From positions 1 through 21,704 of the IMG/VR virus record IMGVR_UViG_3300048549_000746: a DNA stretch of 21,704 nt; one strand, written 5' to 3'. Of the stretch, positions 12,077 to 21,175 are shown piece after piece; positions within the stretch are counted from its first letter, which is position 1, and each line of letters begins with the position of its first letter. The stretch comes from a virus. The position numbers and the translations under genes were made by a program. The notes beneath the pieces were generated by a model that had not been told where the DNA came from, did no database searches, and was given only the letters and a program-made list of their open reading frames with translations.

Positions 12077-15000
12077 TTAGAGAGTTGTCTCTAGACCGAT
12101 AGTCCTGATGAATGTACCTGCAGTATGTGCTTCTGCAGTGGTGCCATCGACACCCCTTGTAACACCAGCAAAACGATCAGCTGACTTGCTAGTATATGTT
12201 ACAAGTTCTTTACCCAATAAGAGTTTTCCAGAGTCAGGGAATCTAGATGTGTCGGGAACATAAAGAACAATTGACACATCAGTTGCAGGAGCATCCAAGA
12301 AACTGACATGCTCTTGTAGAGATGGAACACCTGGGTTGAATAGCGTTCCATTTGTCGTCAATGAAGAGGCATTGATTGCCATATTTTCCATCCAGGTATC
12401 AACTCCTTCGCTGATACCATTGAATTGTGTATAAGTCAACTCAAGTTGCTCAAGGGTGATACCAGATACATTTGCGTATCCAACATCTAGATATAGATAA
12501 TCGAGGAAAGATGCTACTGTAGTTCCCAACTTACCTTGAGAGTAGTATTCGGGGTTAGCAACAGGGTTCTCATCCAATGCAACAACACCAGAACTAAAGT
12601 ATCTGGTTTTAATTGCTCTGAATGACTCAAAAGCAACATCCATATTCTCTGGGAAGATTCTCGTAAATGCAGGTTGTGATACCGCAGCAGGAGATTCTGT
12701 AGCAACAACATACTGAATTTGAGTGAGGATATTCTGTTCAGATACTTCACCCATTCCAATTGCTGGACCAATAAATTGAATAATTCTAGTAACTTCAGCG
12801 CCAAAAGAAACTGGATCCAATACCTTGACAACGCCAACAGATTCAATGATGTTCTTGTAGTAGAGAGGAATGACAGTCGATACTGCAGTGATAGTGGCAA
12901 CTAGATTCTGACCTCCACCACCAGTGGTATATCTGGTCATGAAGAACTCTGGATGGTTATTCTCACGAAGGATTGAATAACCTCTGGAGATTACGACTTT
13001 AGGTGCCTTGGTATAACCAGATCCAGGATCTACGATCTCAATATCAATGATTTGTCCACCATATACAATCACTCTTGCTTTAGCACCACCACCTTCACCA
13101 TTGACAGGAACAAAGTTTAGGACTGGTGGGGTGTTGTAATTATATGCAGTGGGATTAACAAGAATACCATTATTGAAATAGTATGAGAGATCTCTACGAT
13201 TCCAATCAAGGGAAGTTACTTTACCAGCATCAACATTAGCAATTACAGACAGACCTTCTCCAAATTTTTCTTTGTCATAACCACTTGCAGCAATTTTTGT
13301 GAAGAAGTTATTGGAGATTTGTTCTCCATCACGATAATCAGTTGGTCTAGCAAATAGTGGTGAACTGATAATACTTCTGTATGATTTTTCACCATCAATT
13401 TGGATCTTATCACCAACACGAAGGTTTGGATGTTGCTTCAGAATCTCACCTCTGTAGTCATAACTATCAAAGGCATCACCTGTAGGTAAGTAAGGAATAT
13501 AGTTTGCCTCTAGTCTATTGAGGATTCTATCGCCATCTTCATTAGTTACATATGTAATGGTGAAACTATCTGGATTCAGTGTAAGAGGAGTTCCATCATT
13601 TCTATCGAAGATGATTGGTTCTGATGCAGAGGATGAGATATTCTGCGAACGGAGCTCAATAACAAACTTGTTACCAGAACCTAGAGAAACCGAGATAAGA
13701 TCTCCCCATACATTATTGCCCTGCTTGACAATAGTAGTATCAGTGGTGTTTTGTGTACGCCAGGTTGTTAGGGAATCATAACCACTAGCAAGGTCTATTT
13801 CAACCTTTGCTCGGTTGTAGTAAACATCAGGTTCATGATTAAACAGAGTAACTGTTGGGATTGCATCCTTTCCATATAAACGAATGATGTCAACTCTTGC
13901 AGATGCATAAGTACCATCTGCTTGTTCTGCATAAGGAACTGCTTGATTGAATCTAATCAAAGATCCAGCAATTTTATAAGATAGTTCCCTATTCTGCAAT
14001 ACACCATCGACATAAACATATAAGTTTTTGTCGTCAACAGAATTGATTACATTATTATTGCTATCGTAAATGAGGTATTGATTATATTGGTTGTATGGTA
14101 CTACTCTTTCGTCAATTCCAAGTCTTTCGTATAGACCCACACCAAATCCATAGAAATATGTTTCATTCTGTAGTTCTTGTGGAAAAGCATCAGCATCGTA
14201 TAAGTCTTTGTAGTTTTTGGGTGCTTTAGCAAAAGCGATACGATCTGCTTTGTTTGCGCTTGAAAATCGTCTGATTTCATACGAACCTTGCTGTAATACT
14301 CCATCAAGATAGATAAACAAATCTTCTTTATCAGATGTCTTTACAAGACTACCATCTTCCCATTTAAGATCGAAGATTCTAGTTCTACCATCAAAAGAAT
14401 CTGCAATGTTTTGCAGTCTCTTGAGATAACGAGAATTGTCGGTGTCTTCTCTAAACCTAAAGGATCTGATGTACTCTTTCTGTGCTGGGACTTCCTGATC
14501 TTCGTTGATTCTGATACCTAGAGGTGGTTCGTAGAAATTGAGTTGGTTGCCAGTCACCTTGAAAGAATAACCAGGTCGCTGTGCAACACCATCAATAGTC
14601 ATGAGCAGTTCTTGCTCATTATATGGAGTGTATGCAGTGCCTGTTGCTTTATCAATGATAGTGAACTGGGTATTACCAATCTTCAGACCTGTTTGAGGAT
14701 CGTATCTACCATCAAAGGCAGGAGTGAGTTCTAACTCTCTAGTTCTGAATAGAGTCTCGTCAAACTCATCAACAGATACAGAACCAGCACCTCTCGAAAC
14801 TCTAGAGTCTTTTACCTTGAATATACTAGTAGTAATAGATCTCTTGGTAGAAACAGTAGATAGACTTACAGGGGGACCTGTAATAATCACCGTAGTCTTT
14901 TTGACAGGTTGATTAACAGGCATGATCGCAGGTGCCTGTGTTTCCAGGTACACCTCACCAAATGCCTTGAATCCTGCAGGGTGTGTAGTATCTTTGATGA

Positions 15001-18000
15001 TATTACGCCACTGCTTGATTGGAGTTCTAGATCTAATTACATACGAGTAATCTTGATAGAAATCTGAATCATGGATTCTCTGATTTCCAGAACTGATCTT
15101 TCCTCTATCAGACTTGAATACGCCAAGAGTCTTGTCTCTAGTTACGATAACAGGAGAGAATATAGACTTCCTGATGCTATCAATGATAGCAGTACCTTTA
15201 TTCTTACTCTTCCCAACAATCTGTTTGCCAGCTTCAAATACACCTACAATTTCTTGTAGTCTCATTATATTTGAACCTTTCTTCCATCCGTCAGGTGCTA
15301 CTCTACCTTGAGCAGTAACAGTTTGTCCAGAACGCTGTTCAATGATCTCACCCGCTTTAAACGCATCCAATTCAAAATCTTTCAAGATAAAGATGGATGG
15401 TGTCGAGTATTCAGAAATAATTGTGTTGTCTGTATGGAATCCAGATCCATACTTAACAAAATTGACATTTTGTGGAACACCAATATTTTCTGATTCAAAG
15501 AACAATTTGTTATCAGTTTCAATGACTTCTACTAATGGAGTTTCTGTATATGTACCTCCATTGATAATTCTGATCTGTTTGACAACACCGAGCTCAATAT
15601 CAATTTCTGTCTGTAATCCAGATCCATTACCACTCGCAACCACTAATTCTGGTTTAGAATACTTCTGACCAGGATTATCAATAGTAATTGCTTCAATTGC
15701 ATTAGTAGAGGCATTTCTAACTGCCGTTACTTGTGCCTTACATGAATCAGCAGGCACAACGCCTTTGATAACTGGCATTTGGGTATATCCAGAACCCAGG
15801 TTATCTAGTTTGACAGATGCAATTTTTCCAACAGATCTTCCTGTATAGTTAATATCTCCAGATCCATCATATTGTGGGATGTTTCCGATTTCATACACAA
15901 CTTTGGTGTCTGATGTGTATGTAACTCTCTTTCTACCAGAAAGAGGATCATCGATGACTCTCAAGAAAGATCCTTCTGTGTCTGTGGAAGAATTAGTGAG
16001 GAAGTAATAGTAACTAGTGAAGTTTACATCTTTACGTGTCTTTTCACCGATGTCTGCACCATAACCAAGTCTGATTCTGACATATGCACCAGGATTACCA
16101 GGTTCAGTCAGACCGACTTCTTTCTCTTCTGTAAAGACATTGAAGTTTGGACTTGTAGAAATATCCAGGTATGAATTCAGCATCGAAGGATGACTGACAT
16201 CGAACTTATAGAAGTAATACTTCTGAATGTCTACAACAGGATTAGTTATAAAGTTGTTGTTATCTAGAGAGAAGAGAAGTTTCTCTTTGATAGGATAAGT
16301 ATTAGAAATAGACACCACTTTAGATGGTGTGCTCTGGTCTTCAATAGAAGACACAGTTGTTAGAGGAACTGTAGATGTTGCGTTGTAATCCCAGTTGACA
16401 ATTAGTCTCTTGGTAGTCTTATTGTAAGACACAACAACAGGATCATTAGCAGTATTGCCGCCAAGTCTAGATCCAGGTGTAAAGTTGTAAGATGGATTGA
16501 AAGACGTTATATCCTTTCCATCACCATGATCTGACTTACTGGTGCCTTCCTGTGCTCTCAACACAGTCATCTTCTTATTAGCGTTGTCAACTGTGACAAC
16601 CTTGATAACTTCAGATCCGATAGACAGTAAATCATTTACTGCAATACCGAAAGTGTTAGTTACATTGAGATCTGTTCTGTCAACACCAAATCCAGCAGAA
16701 TCTACATTGATTAGAGGAGTGGATGATCCTGGGGAAGGATACACAGTAATGGTTCCAACCATTTCTGGGTGGGCAATACAGATATAGTAGTATGTACCAG
16801 CAAATTGTGGTGTGAATGTAATTGGGACAGATTGATCGGTAGAAGATCCAGTAGCAATATCATAATCCTCAATCTTCAATGCATATCCATCAAGTGCCAG
16901 CGTTGTGCTGTAATCAGACACCACATAGATGGTATGACCACCCATGTTGGGAATAGTGAGTGTGCTGCCAACACGAAGGTTGTAGGTGGGGTTTTCTTCG
17001 TTGGTAGTTAGATCTTTGAATATGTACTGTGGTAACAGTGAACCAGGAGGATAGAAGGTATCTACAGCAGTAATTACATATCCACCAATTGTATCGGAAG
17101 TTGTGATTTCATCTCCCTCTTCATCAACAATAAAATACTGAATACTAAAATTATTTGGATCTGTGCCCTGATAAATGAAGTTTACGTTACCACCGTCATT
17201 TACACCAAAAGCAGCTGCCACATATTCATTGGCAATGAAATTATCGTAGTCAGCTTCTGCAACGAAGAATCTCTTCGATAGATTTGCTTCTACTTGCGAT
17301 TGGTTGGTATACACCATACCAAGATTAGGACTCTGATCCAAATCAGCAGGATCTACTCTAGGGATAGCAGTTGGTTCTAAAGTTAAGATATCATCTCTAC
17401 GATAGTTAGAACCTGGATCGGTAACAGTAATGCTTTCGATATTGCCACTACCATCAAAATTACCAGTACCAACAACTACAGTCGCTTTTGCCTGAACAAT
17501 ATCATCTCTGTTCTTTGCAGAATTTGCAAATACCAGGGGTACATCATTATATGTGTTTGAATAGTAGTCTTTACCCAAACCGATGACAGTAGATGCTCCG
17601 ATACCACTATCGTCTACTTTGGCACTATATTGTAGATCAATTAGATCTAGTTCTTGGAATTTCTTCTTCGTGACATAGTAAGTAGTCTCTGTAGTTGCTT
17701 CATCAGGATCTACAATAATATCGATGATATCTCCACCACCAAAGTCATGTGCTTCAGCAGTTTCTAGAATAGCAATATTCTCTTCAATATCAGTGACTCT
17801 GATATTTCTACTTAACTCATTAATAATGACAATTTCTGTTCCAGCAGTGTTACCTAGGTCACTACTCTTCAAGATTACTTCGCCTTCTTCATAATTTAGA
17901 TAGTCATCAAAACTACCAGTCAATACTTTTAGTCTAACAGCATTCTGTTCGACTGTTCCTGCTAAAATCTGACCAGTAGCAATTTCTGTGGTGGGATCGT

Positions 18001-21000
18001 CAAAAAGTACAAGAGCAAGTGTTTCACCTTGAGTGTATGTACTATTTTTAGACAAGAGTATGTTAATTACTCTAGTAGAAGAATTGATGTCATATCCTGG
18101 TTCAAAAGTACCACTGATGTTTCTCAACACCATGGTGTTCTCTTCACTCACATCTCGGATGAGTTCGCCAGTAGCATTAGTTCCCTGTTGAGTGATTGTA
18201 TCGCCAGTAAAACCAAAGAAGGTTTGTAGTGTGGAGATTTGCGCTGCTTTTAGTTCTTTTGATTCGATACCAGTGACATCTTTACCAAATGTGGATGCAA
18301 CGATACCAGAAGCACCACTACCACCAGTTCCAGAGTCATCAACATAAATTCTACATCCAACTTGGAAATTGGGTTGCGAATCTTCAATCTTCACTGAAGA
18401 TACAAATCCAGAACTGACAGAATCTACAAATGCAATTTCATCAGCACCATTCTTCAATGTGCCAGGGACAAACAACCTTCTAGAGTTAGAAGGAATGGAT
18501 TTCTGTGTGATCTTACTTTCGTAGTTAGATCTAACAGGCAGAGAATAGAAATTGTCTCCAAGGATATATGGATATACAGGTTTGTTCGTAGCATCCATCG
18601 AAATGAAGTATGCATACGTTCCCTGTGGGAATTCTGGTGTTACACAGAATCTACCATTATTGATATCAAGACGAGTCTTACCAGTATCAACTGTAGCAAC
18701 CCACTCGTAGTCATCAACAAATGTGCCCATCTCGTATGGAGCATCGACGGGACCATCAGTTCTTGTATTCTTGAGTTCGTACCCACTGTTCATTCTCGCA
18801 ATGGAAGATGAACTGTCTAGAGGGTCAGAGAATGCATATGGACCATAAATTGGATTTCCATCATAAGCATACCCGAGAATTGGTGAGTGAGTGAGAGTTG
18901 CTGTCTCCTGAAGAGTGACTGGATTGATGTTATCCTGTAACTTTACACGCAGTCTTTTGGGGTTTGCAGCAACACCATAATAATATTCATTTTCAATTGC
19001 ATCCTTTACTGCTAGTCCGTTGTTATCATCTAAAACGAGCTCATTTTCAAAGTACCTATTTCGCACCCAACGATAAATTTTTGCAGTCGCTGCAGCTGGG
19101 TTGTTCTGACCTTCGGAGAACAGTTCGACTCTTACATTTTCTTGTGTATAGAATTTACCACCAGAGACTTTTTCAAATTCGGTGATTTTTCCTAACGTGT
19201 TGATCTTTGCACGATATTCTGCAAACCTACCTTTACCTGCTAGGTCACTGATTAAGATGAGAGGAGGGGCAGAATAATACTCACCACTGTTAATAACTCT
19301 GATGCTAGTAATTTCTCCAGAAGTCACAACCGCTTCTGCTGCACCATATCTACCAGCAGTGATCTCGATCAGTGGATCTGCTGTATAATTTTTATTTTTG
19401 ATCGTTGTGATTGCATTAACAGTATCACCTGCCAAAGAAGACAGAGCAATCGTTGAATCACCGTTCACCAGAACATAAGGAGGTTTGGTGTATCCAGAAC
19501 CACGATTCGTAAGGTTGTAAGTCTGAATATCACCATAAGCAATATTATTCTCACTCTTGAAACTAAAAGCAATAGAACCATCAACAAAGATGCCAATATC
19601 TCTTGTTGGGGTTTTATATACTTCTGGTGTTGTACTAGACTGCTTTGGAATTAATTTAAGCAGTTGAGGATCAACCAAAGGTGTAGGTTGAGTAGCACCT
19701 GTCAAAATCCTTGTAGAAGGATATGAAGATGTTGAGATGTAGAAATACTGACTATCTTCGTATATTGCACCTACATCAGCAACATAATTTGACAACCCTT
19801 GACCAACACCAGGATTCAGTGGAACTGAAGGTGTTAATGAACCAGGGTTCATCTGCCAACGAATTCTGTTAGCAGTTTGATCATAGATTACAGGATTCTT
19901 GGTTTCAAATCCTGGTTTGGAGATTTGTACCTTATCTCCAACTTTAGAATATGGTTCAGCAACATCAACATTTAAATTTGTTAGTGTTCCATAGACAAGT
20001 AACTTGACATCACCTTGATCAGTAGATGCAGTGACATTAGAATAACCTACTACAAGGTCACCCACATCGTGAGTTCTTGTGACATTACCACGCTCTCTAA
20101 TAATAAACTGTCTAGAACCCTTTCCTTCGTATCGGATGACTTCATTATTAATTTGAACGTATCCATTCTGTGTATTCCAACCTAATGTGGAGTCTACAGT
20201 GACTCTACTACCAGCACCTTGACTAGGCGTGAGAACCCTGTCCAGCACTGTCTTTTCAGGGATTGTAAATTCACCATTTACGGTACTTGGGTTAATGATC
20301 AGGTTGAACAACCCATAATCACCAACTTTACCAATGCCAATGACATTCTCAATACCTACAGATGCATATGAAGCATTTGGAGAGTTCTTGTCAGACTGCT
20401 GAACAATAGTTTGTCCAATCAACCAGTCGGCATCACCTTGTAGAACAATGACTTGTAGTGCAAATGAAGCATCCCAGTTGGATTCTGATACTTTTACAGT
20501 AAAGTCTTTTGGATAGTATGTTGTGGGGATATCATCAGCACTCTTCGAGACGATAGAGTTGAAGATAAACCTAATTGACTTGTCAGTTCCTTTGACTTTG
20601 TAAAAGTCAGCGATGTTCTTGATTAACTGACGTTTGTCGATATCTCCTTTGAGATATACTTCTGGCACATCAACCAGATATTCTCTCTCAAACGCCTTCA
20701 CAAGAGCGTACAGGAAGAGGTGACTTAAATTATGTACTACCGAACTGGTAGCGTGAAACTTTGCGTCAGAGGACGTGTATTGGGACTTTTCGTAGAGATC
20801 CCCTAGTTGGGTGGTTCCACTGACTCCTCTGGAGACTCCCAAAAACTCTGTATCTGTTCTGGAAGCATAAAAACAAATTTCATCACCAATTTTGACATAT
20901 CCATTCTTTCTGGGGAATGAAGATGCATCAGCAACCGCAATGGTGGTATCTGTAACAGAAATGCCAGCAGTTGTGGTAGTTTGTTCTGTTAGTAGATTTT

Positions 21001-21175
21001 TTTCGTAAAAATCGATATCACGGTATGATGTGATGTTCGATATAATATCTAAAGACTGACCAGTAGATTCTAGTTGCTCATAGTATGCTTCGATGACTGC
21101 CGCGACATTTCCATATTCAGAAACGATAAACGCAGGAAGCTGTGTCTCAATTAGCGATGAAATTTTATTACTCAT
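12077..21175 (-). CDS. gp7: Giant gp7-like baseplate wedge protein with YHYH and cupredoxin-like domains
   Basis: The product has 3032 residues; T4 gp7 has about 1032. The ATG start lies 4 bases after the gp6 stop. gp7 initiates wedge assembly and binds gp8 and gp10 in T4. T4-like core motifs: residues 10-60 (VIEAYYEQLESTGQ, YRDIDFY), 174-208 (VYLKGDIDKRQLI, DFYKVKGTDKSIRFIF; compare T4 IYLNADKRDAV and DFYSTKGIEASYKFLF), 253-315 (IGQTI…) and about 2040-2075 (SYVIRSRTPIKQWR, HPAGF; compare T4 VHPVGF). Extra material: an RG-x-x-GT beta module at 71-125, 321-377, about 1485-1545 and 2960-3028; a YHYH-type domain at about 760-882; a cupredoxin-like domain at about 1393-1480 (His1414, Cys1466, His1469, Met1472); GSGY repeats; and three DGV-type repeats near 2196, 2292 and 2391. 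I see no signal peptide or membrane segment. The N-terminal two thirds of T4 gp7 has no visible counterpart. The gp7 call is based on remembered T4 motifs plus synteny; a databank may simply call it a virion structural protein. Confidence 0.8.
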   Translation of the reverse strand: MSNKISSLIETQLPAFIVSEYGNVAAVIEAYYEQLESTGQSLDIISNITSYRDIDFYEKNLLTEQTTTTAGISVTDTTIAVADASSFPRKNGYVKIGDEICFYASRTDTEFLGVSRGVSGTTQLGDLYEKSQYTSSDAKFHATSSVVHNLSHLFLYALVKAFEREYLVDVPEVYLKGDIDKRQLIKNIADFYKVKGTDKSIRFIFNSIVSKSADDIPTTYYPKDFTVKVSESNWDASFALQVIVLQGDADWLIGQTIVQQSDKNSPNASYASVGIENVIGIGKVGDYGLFNLIINPSTVNGEFTIPEKTVLDRVLTPSQGAGSRVTVDSTLGWNTQNGYVQINNEVIRYEGKGSRQFIIRERGNVTRTHDVGDLVVGYSNVTASTDQGDVKLLVYGTLTNLNVDVAEPYSKVGDKVQISKPGFETKNPVIYDQTANRIRWQMNPGSLTPSVPLNPGVGQGLSNYVADVGAIYEDSQYFYISTSSYPSTRILTGATQPTPLVDPQLLKLIPKQSSTTPEVYKTPTRDIGIFVDGSIAFSFKSENNIAYGDIQTYNLTNRGSGYTKPPYVLVNGDSTIALSSLAGDTVNAITTIKNKNYTADPLIEITAGRYGAAEAVVTSGEITSIRVINSGEYYSAPPLILISDLAGKGRFAEYRAKINTLGKITEFEKVSGGKFYTQENVRVELFSEGQNNPAAATAKIYRWVRNRYFENELVLDDNNGLAVKDAIENEYYYGVAANPKRLRVKLQDNINPVTLQETATLTHSPILGYAYDGNPIYGPYAFSDPLDSSSSIARMNSGYELKNTRTDGPVDAPYEMGTFVDDYEWVATVDTGKTRLDINNGRFCVTPEFPQGTYAYFISMDATNKPVYPYILGDNFYSLPVRSNYESKITQKSIPSNSRRLFVPGTLKNGADEIAFVDSVSSGFVSSVKIEDSQPNFQVGCRIYVDDSGTGGSGASGIVASTFGKDVTGIESKELKAAQISTLQTFFGFTGDTITQQGTNATGELIRDVSEENTMVLRNISGTFEPGYDINSSTRVINILLSKNSTYTQGETLALVLFDDPTTEIATGQILAGTVEQNAVRLKVLTGSFDDYLNYEEGEVILKSSDLGNTAGTEIVIINELSRNIRVTDIEENIAILETAEAHDFGGGDIIDIIVDPDEATTETTYYVTKKKFQELDLIDLQYSAKVDDSGIGASTVIGLGKDYYSNTYNDVPLVFANSAKNRDDIVQAKATVVVGTGNFDGSGNIESITVTDPGSNYRRDDILTLEPTAIPRVDPADLDQSPNLGMVYTNQSQVEANLSKRFFVAEADYDNFIANEYVAAAFGVNDGGNVNFIYQGTDPNNFSIQYFIVDEEGDEITTSDTIGGYVITAVDTFYPPGSLLPQYIFKDLTTNEENPTYNLRVGSTLTIPNMGGHTIYVVSDYSTTLALDGYALKIEDYDIATGSSTDQSVPITFTPQFAGTYYYICIAHPEMVGTITVYPSPGSSTPLINVDSAGFGVDRTDLNVTNTFGIAVNDLLSIGSEVIKVVTVDNANKKMTVLRAQEGTSKSDHGDGKDITSFNPSYNFTPGSRLGGNTANDPVVVSYNKTTKRLIVNWDYNATSTVPLTTVSSIEDQSTPSKVVSISNTYPIKEKLLFSLDNNNFITNPVVDIQKYYFYKFDVSHPSMLNSYLDISTSPNFNVFTEEKEVGLTEPGNPGAYVRIRLGYGADIGEKTRKDVNFTSYYYFLTNSSTDTEGSFLRVIDDPLSGRKRVTYTSDTKVVYEIGNIPQYDGSGDINYTGRSVGKIASVKLDNLGSGYTQMPVIKGVVPADSCKAQVTAVRNASTNAIEAITIDNPGQKYSKPELVVASGNGSGLQTEIDIELGVVKQIRIINGGTYTETPLVEVIETDNKLFFESENIGVPQNVNFVKYGSGFHTDNTIISEYSTPSIFILKDFELDAFKAGEIIEQRSGQTVTAQGRVAPDGWKKGSNIMRLQEIVGVFEAGKQIVGKSKNKGTAIIDSIRKSIFSPVIVTRDKTLGVFKSDRGKISSGNQRIHDSDFYQDYSYVIRSRTPIKQWRNIIKDTTHPAGFKAFGEVYLETQAPAIMPVNQPVKKTTVIITGPPVSLSTVSTKRSITTSIFKVKDSRVSRGAGSVSVDEFDETLFRTRELELTPAFDGRYDPQTGLKIGNTQFTIIDKATGTAYTPYNEQELLMTIDGVAQRPGYSFKVTGNQLNFYEPPLGIRINEDQEVPAQKEYIRSFRFREDTDNSRYLKRLQNIADSFDGRTRIFDLKWEDGSLVKTSDKEDLFIYLDGVLQQGSYEIRRFSSANKADRIAFAKAPKNYKDLYDADAFPQELQNETYFYGFGVGLYERLGIDERVVPYNQYNQYLIYDSNNNVINSVDDKNLYVYVDGVLQNRELSYKIAGSLIRFNQAVPYAEQADGTYASARVDIIRLYGKDAIPTVTLFNHEPDVYYNRAKVEIDLASGYDSLTTWRTQNTTDTTIVKQGNNVWGDLISVSLGSGNKFVIELRSQNISSSASEPIIFDRNDGTPLTLNPDSFTITYVTNEDGDRILNRLEANYIPYLPTGDAFDSYDYRGEILKQHPNLRVGDKIQIDGEKSYRSIISSPLFARPTDYRDGEQISNNFFTKIAASGYDKEKFGEGLSVIANVDAGKVTSLDWNRRDLSYYFNNGILVNPTAYNYNTPPVLNFVPVNGEGGGAKARVIVYGGQIIDIEIVDPGSGYTKAPKVVISRGYSILRENNHPEFFMTRYTTGGGGQNLVATITAVSTVIPLYYKNIIESVGVVKVLDPVSFGAEVTRIIQFIGPAIGMGEVSEQNILTQIQYVVATESPAAVSQPAFTRIFPENMDVAFESFRAIKTRYFSSGVVALDENPVANPEYYSQGKLGTTVASFLDYLYLDVGYANVSGITLEQLELTYTQFNGISEGVDTWMENMAINASSLTTNGTLFNPGVPSLQEHVSFLDAPATDVSIVLYVPDTSRFPDSGKLLLGKELVTYTSKSADRFAGVTRGVDGTTAEAHTAGTFIRTIGLETTL
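16736..16999 (-). other. Cupredoxin (plastocyanin/amicyanin)-like domain inside gp7 (about residues 1393-1480)
   Basis: The segment has the shape of a small blue-copper fold. It begins with a strand (RVGSTLTIPNMGGHTIYVV, His1414) and, after a variable middle, reaches FAGTYYYICIAHPEMVGTIT (Cys1466, His1469, Met1472). These are the four ligands of a type 1 copper site in the correct order. The Cys-x2-His-x2-Met loop has the short spacing of amicyanin rather than the Cys-x2-His-x4-Met of plastocyanin. The glycine-tyrosine lead-in and the closing MVGTITV strand also match the family. Whether copper is bound in a virion is unknown. Confidence 0.78.
18530..18898 (-). other. YHYH-type domain inside gp7 (about residues 760-882)
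   Basis: The segment starts with SPILGYAYDGNPIYGPYAF (residues 764-782), which closely resembles the 'GYA.DG.PIYGPY' signature of the YHYH family (Pfam YHYH). It continues through a GTFVDDYEW stretch to an NGRFCVTPEFP segment and ends near YPYILGDNFY. The tetrapeptide that names the family is replaced by YAYF (residues 854-857), so both histidines are missing. The family's function is poorly known. Here it is embedded in a phage structural protein, so a structural or surface-binding role is more likely than catalysis; that is inference. Confidence 0.72.

Follow-up and report, generated by a model that had tools for sequence, protein, structure and literature searches.

Our sequence and structure searches of the window, by which we mean the whole stretch of 21,704 nucleotides analyzed here (IMG/VR record IMGVR_UViG_3300048549_000746), indicated with moderate confidence that residues about 1385–1481 of its largest structural protein form an exposed cupredoxin accessory domain with a predicted type-1-copper-type site (His, Cys, His, Met/Ala), probably serving attachment. 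The window content corresponds to the gp6-to-tail-fibre stretch of a cyanophage, and the protein in question is called gp7 by its position between gp6 and gp8. This gp7 was 99.8–100% identical over 2,932 residues to that of seven records of Synechococcus phage S-CAM1, for which Synechococcus WH7803 is the host wherever the record names a strain. It scored 24.3 against Pfam Baseplate_wedge (PF23786; cut-off, 27) and contains 5 Cys, 18 His, and 20 Met. The relevant features in the window are as follows.

12077–21175, minus strand: open reading frame of the gp7-position baseplate wedge protein, 3,032 amino acids (PHROG 4406, virion structural protein)
18587–19069, minus strand: YHYH domain of gp7, residues 703–863 (Pfam PF14240; E, 1.4e-27)
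16733–17344, minus strand: insertion of 204 amino acids, residues 1278–1481 (alignment of nine gp7 proteins)
17024–17344, minus strand: first part of the insertion, residues 1278–1384 (same alignment)
16733–17023, minus strand: cupredoxin-like domain, residues about 1385–1481 (profile and structure searches)
16934–16936, minus strand: His1414, predicted first equatorial ligand, invariant in 26 of 26 distinct gp7 inserts
16778–16780, minus strand: Cys1466, predicted thiolate ligand, invariant in 26 of 26
16769–16771, minus strand: His1469, predicted second equatorial ligand, invariant in 26 of 26
16760–16762, minus strand: Met1472, predicted axial ligand, Met in 13 and Ala in 13 of the 26

Alignment of nine gp7 proteins revealed a clean insertion at residues 1278–1481 that was present in S-CAM1, S-CAM3, and two further loci (L049 and L052) and absent from the remaining five (S-PM2, Syn1, S-RSM4, Sf-FR1, and AG-345-P14). 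At the level of sequence comparison, this demonstrated that the domain and a second short segment were inserted into a loop of one cyanophage gp7 lineage. In a pairwise search with the domain (E up to 10), it was found within gp7 in 11 of the 44 phage records matched (7 of S-CAM1 and 4 of S-CAM3); for comparison, the gp7 query was covered to at least 80% in 59 phage records. Relatives of the first 107 residues of the insertion (17024–17344) were conserved in 21 viral loci.

The initial annotation had pointed to His1414, Cys1466, His1469, and Met1472 as a complete blue-copper ligand set with the short loop of amicyanin, and both observations held: the four residues occur in this order in the open reading frame at 12077–21175, inside 16736–16999, and the C-x2-H-x2-M loop has the amicyanin length. 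The best match of the domain in a phmmer search of the PDB was amicyanin itself (2gb2; E, 0.0029), in an alignment that includes the Cys-His-Met loop. The predicted ligands follow the type 1 arrangement, in which an upstream His is followed, close to the C-terminus, by Cys-x(n)-His-x(n)-Met. Chance origin of the motif was rejected, as the composition of gp7 predicts about 0.0002 C-x2-H-x2-M motifs in the protein, or about 0.00002 when a His is placed 40–60 residues upstream. Across the five translated proteins of the window, C-x2-H occurs once, at this position in gp7.

Cupredoxins are familiar as electron carriers and as domains of enzymes, and the homology of the gp7 domain to this family was demonstrated by sequence profiles. 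The domain scored 22.8 bits (E, 9e-5) against NCBIfam amicyanin (TIGR02657), far under the equivalog cut-off of 110.2; 15.3 bits against NCBIfam plastocyanin PetE (TIGR02656), below its equivalog cut-off of 87.85; and 19.0 bits (E, 0.0019) against Pfam Copper-bind (PF00127), with a curated cut-off of 21.2. The last cut-off was exceeded by the related phage copy L074 (25.5), a P-SSM2 tail spike (23.3), and three Bacteroidetes relatives (32.9, 23.3, and 21.3), while five other phage copies stayed under it (13.1–21.0). A profile built from 77 rows matched PDB sequences of copper nitrite reductase (E, 2e-10), rusticyanin (8e-9), plastocyanin (5e-8), and amicyanin (2e-7). The AlphaFold model of residues 1366–1490 (67 sequences; pLDDT, 84.4; pTM, 0.77) predicted a cupredoxin beta sandwich over residues about 1385–1481, in which the Cys ends one strand and the Met lies just ahead of the last strand. 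VIA-align 2 ranked nitrite reductase at the top for this model (Z, 8.9; rmsd, 6.8), followed by rusticyanin (Z, 8.8; rmsd, 2.9; 97 residues), and copper proteins or their relatives made up nearly all of the 50 matches listed. Foldseek matches in the PDB were weaker (best, plastocyanin with E 1.1e-3, TM 0.37–0.45, and rmsd 9.0) and also included Ig folds; in the viral library, Foldseek returned 25 matches at E up to 0.001, the named ones being mostly cyanophage tail or structural proteins. The profile, the AlphaFold model, and the rusticyanin match support the cupredoxin fold that had been proposed from the sequence. The domain resembles amicyanin, rusticyanin, and plastocyanin in its fold, in the order of the four ligands, and in loop length, but it differs from type 1 cupredoxins in that it is inserted in a virion baseplate protein, reaches no equivalog model, carries an axial Ala in half of its orthologues, and has a putative copper site known from sequence. 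The residue after the first His in classical type 1 sites is mostly Asn or Ser; a Pro directly follows this His in 48 of 53 clusters of the phage family, and gp7 has a Thr.

Retention of the ligands was tallied with profiles in which the four ligand columns were set to X, and matches had to span at least 70% of the columns of the model, which removed 21 of 148 from a first tally and 60 of 408 from a later one. All four ligands (HCHM) were present in 210 of 255 full-length viral copies. Phage copies formed 77 clusters at 70% identity, of which 66 have both the first His and the Cys-x2-His loop, 9 have neither, and 2 are discordant. A count by fixed columns gave 67, 8, and 2 (Cys only), respectively; the motif-based count was preferred because fixed columns could misplace a shifted Cys. 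In the cluster scored as His only (L101), a longer loop of the form C-x4-H is retained, and several copies lacking the ligands keep a Cys adjacent to the expected column. The persistence of ligand-less copies indicates that the fold does not need a metal. Comparison of the phage sequences demonstrated that the ligand set of the cupredoxin-like insertion is under selection as a unit. Tandem cupredoxin copies, two or three in number, were observed in three viral open reading frames (L096, L066, and L073), and in L073 one tandem copy is without His, Cys, and His, which were lost together.

Because the pattern of the first scan and one of two later patterns contained Cys, this residue was favored in the phage and cellular tallies, and gp7 loci were therefore fetched again with a ligand-free flank (residues 1485–1760). 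This yielded 44 loci, of which 42 were analyzed after two truncated ones (L392 and L397) were left out; they comprised 28 distinct gp7 proteins, 26 with the domain and 2 without the insertion. His, Cys, and His were invariant in all 26 inserts, against a background in which 23 of 86 domain columns were invariant and the commonest letter of the median column reached 69%, and the axial position was occupied by Met or Ala in equal numbers, with no other residue. Free variation of Cys, His, and Met among homologues had been named in advance as grounds for abandoning the copper site; the Cys and both His did not vary, but the Met did, being replaced by Ala in half of the inserts. The presence of an axial Ala in half of the orthologues indicates that His-Cys-His is the essential part of the predicted site. 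In a quick-search tree built from the flank, with SH-aLRT support values, strongly supported branches forced at least three Met/Ala changes, although between-phage recombination of the domain could also have caused these changes. Ala at this position is encoded by three different codons. A Cu(II) structure exists for a Met-to-Ala amicyanin, judging by the title of PDB entry 2idq. The dN/dS was about 0.08–0.16 against four orthologues at dS 0.3–0.7, and the codon of the first His has undergone synonymous change (CAT/CAC) among close orthologues. The earlier argument that intact ligands speak against pure structural drift is thus strengthened by the invariant His-Cys-His and by the all-or-none pattern across the phage copies.

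The YHYH domain of the same protein offered an internal comparison. According to a previous study (PMC7824862), a Zn site is predicted in YHYH domains, which like the cupredoxin domain are metal-type accessory domains on cyanophage tail or baseplate proteins. The name-giving motif reads YAYF in S-CAM1 gp7 and YAYF or YAYY in nine of nine gp7 proteins, so the proposed metal site of the gp7 YHYH domain looks lost from its sequence. Unlike this motif, the cupredoxin ligands were kept, and their retention is therefore not automatic. PMC7824862 mentions neither cupredoxin nor plastocyanin nor copper. In the Actinomycetia phage DSL-LC01 (L018:5041–6411), a cupredoxin domain lies between the two parts of a YHYH domain, and several large viral open reading frames (such as L257 and L251) carry a cupredoxin copy directly upstream of YHYH-like sequence.

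To place the domain among phage and cellular proteins, copy L074 was used as a query against 50,697 phage records. At E up to 0.001, it matched 66 of them, comprising 48 Synechococcus, 13 Prochlorococcus, 3 marine virus, 1 Actinomycetia phage, and 1 other record; among their annotations are tail spike, tail fibre, baseplate wedge tail fibre connector, peptidase S8, and hypothetical protein. The search of bacterial and archaeal genomes confirmed 158 places, and the best 80 of these were mostly from marine Bacteroidetes, with 13 or more Thaumarchaeota-type records and one from Euryarchaeota; some of the cellular contigs could be misbinned viral DNA, and others are chromosome-sized. The Bacteroidetes surface proteins (L150–L207) belong to the same family as the gp7 domain in pairwise comparison (E down to 3e-12), have the same ligands, and are up to 73% identical to L074. 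The examples inspected comprised a small secreted protein and secreted proteins that also carry DUF285, Ig-like, thrombospondin, cadherin, or sorting domains; the cupredoxin domain was mostly C-terminal where it accompanied DUF285, Ig-like, or sorting domains. By fixed columns, HCHM was present in 61 of the 93 cellular copies from the best 80 of the 158 places; the others were not counted as losses, since they are mostly thaumarchaeal two-domain proteins in which the loop length is probably different.

These relatives bear on the alternative origins of the domain. The initial annotation had raised the possibility of a captured host domain, with plastocyanin in mind, and either the capture of a host plastocyanin or a photosynthetic electron carrier borne on the virion would fit the fact that plastocyanin is a known cyanophage gene, as described in PMC3037559, and that S-CAM1 and four others among the eight phage records searched encode it as a separate gene. 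However, a pairwise search with the gp7 domain, run to E 10, matched none of five phage-borne plastocyanins but 80 of the 93 cellular copies (from the best 80 of 158 places) and 205 of 255 viral copies; plastocyanins were reached by the family profile only, as distant relatives. A recent capture from host plastocyanin is therefore unsupported, and the nearest cellular proteins are the Bacteroidetes surface proteins. The low plastocyanin profile score and the embedding of the domain in a 3,032-amino-acid structural protein also argue against this origin, which we regard as highly improbable. A captured copper protein might instead serve as a structural beta-sandwich spacer whose ligand residues are a relic. 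Many Ig-like sandwiches are reused in phage tails, Ig folds appeared among the Foldseek matches, 9 of the 77 clusters persist without the site, and the axial Met was replaced in half of the gp7 orthologues. Against these points stand the invariance of His-Cys-His in 26 of 26 inserts, the keeping or loss of the ligands as a set rather than singly, the rarity of Cys in gp7 (5 in 3,032 residues), and the YHYH domain, which illustrates that a metal motif can be lost within the same protein. On balance, we consider a relic spacer unlikely.

The identity of the metal can also be questioned. The ligands could hold Zn(II) or Cu(I) on Cys-His-His for stability, without redox use, a non-blue-copper arrangement with which the axial Ala in 13 of 26 inserts and the Pro after the first His in most copies would be compatible. 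The Cys-x2-His-x2-Met loop and the fold match type 1 copper proteins, however, and the Met was kept in most copies of the family, as the HCHM count for viral copies indicates, making this arrangement quite improbable in our judgment.

We therefore return to the exposed accessory domain with a copper-type site as our preferred reading. The site would bind copper, taken up from seawater once the cell has lysed or from the host while it lyses; its acquisition is placed at or after lysis because virions are assembled in the cytoplasm, which contains little copper. The bound metal may lock the Cys-His-Met loop and the exposed face carrying this loop, and that face would project from the baseplate and serve host-surface contact. 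A role in host contact is suggested by the recurrence of the domain on tail spikes, gp9-type connectors, and tail proteases as well as on surface proteins of bacteria. Met/Ala changes at the axial position might tune the site without abolishing it. Redox use of the predicted site is possible but unsupported. Domains of this kind are numerous on the tails of marine phages, and the baseplate domain, being one of them, suggests that metal sites occur on the attachment machinery of these viruses. The literature searched, which comprised non-subscription papers other than preprints, yielded no description of a phage-tail cupredoxin domain, and the gp7 domain is a known fold in a setting that we did not find described. 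If our reading is correct, a metal cofactor would be added to virus attachment, infection would be tied to seawater copper, and virions would be a possible copper carrier. The natural orthologues of S-CAM1 and S-CAM3 differ at the axial ligand, which is Ala in S-CAM3, rendering this reading directly testable.

More tentatively, and with a good deal less conviction, we propose that a mobile cupredoxin module, present also in surface proteins of marine Bacteroidetes, has been repeatedly installed in gp7, gp9-type connectors, tail spikes, tail subtilases (partly as nested natural permutants), and YHYH proteins, that its axial ligand alternates between Met and Ala, and that the virions are loaded with copper and put the site to use at the host surface. 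The subtilase copies are represented by the following locus.

L149:659–2914 (NC_020837 1658–3913), minus strand: subtilase with permuted domain (relatives, L308–L332)

In the S-CAM1 tail-fibre-locus subtilase SXBG_00005, which lies outside the window, the domain order is permuted, with model positions 72–99 followed by 2–75. A permuted, loop-nested cupredoxin was found in 20 of 25 related subtilase loci, the other five being partial or without the insert and left out before the counts, and 8 of the 20 have a second permuted copy in another loop; one relative of 638 amino acids (L329) has neither copy. The model of a permuted copy was moderate (pLDDT, 69.6), and four other models reached 39–52. 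Its best VIA-align match was an azurin engineered as a circular permutant (5yt7; Z, 5.3; rmsd, 2.7; 80 residues), a weak match in that an unrelated protein came next at Z 4.8, tied within 1, and Foldseek gave no match in the PDB at E up to 0.001 (best E, 0.13, unrelated). The predicted permutation thus draws on sequence order together with the weak 5yt7 match, and the phage arrangement, unlike that of the engineered azurin, would be a natural one. Across 13 distinct permuted copies, the Cys, His, Met, and first His were invariant.
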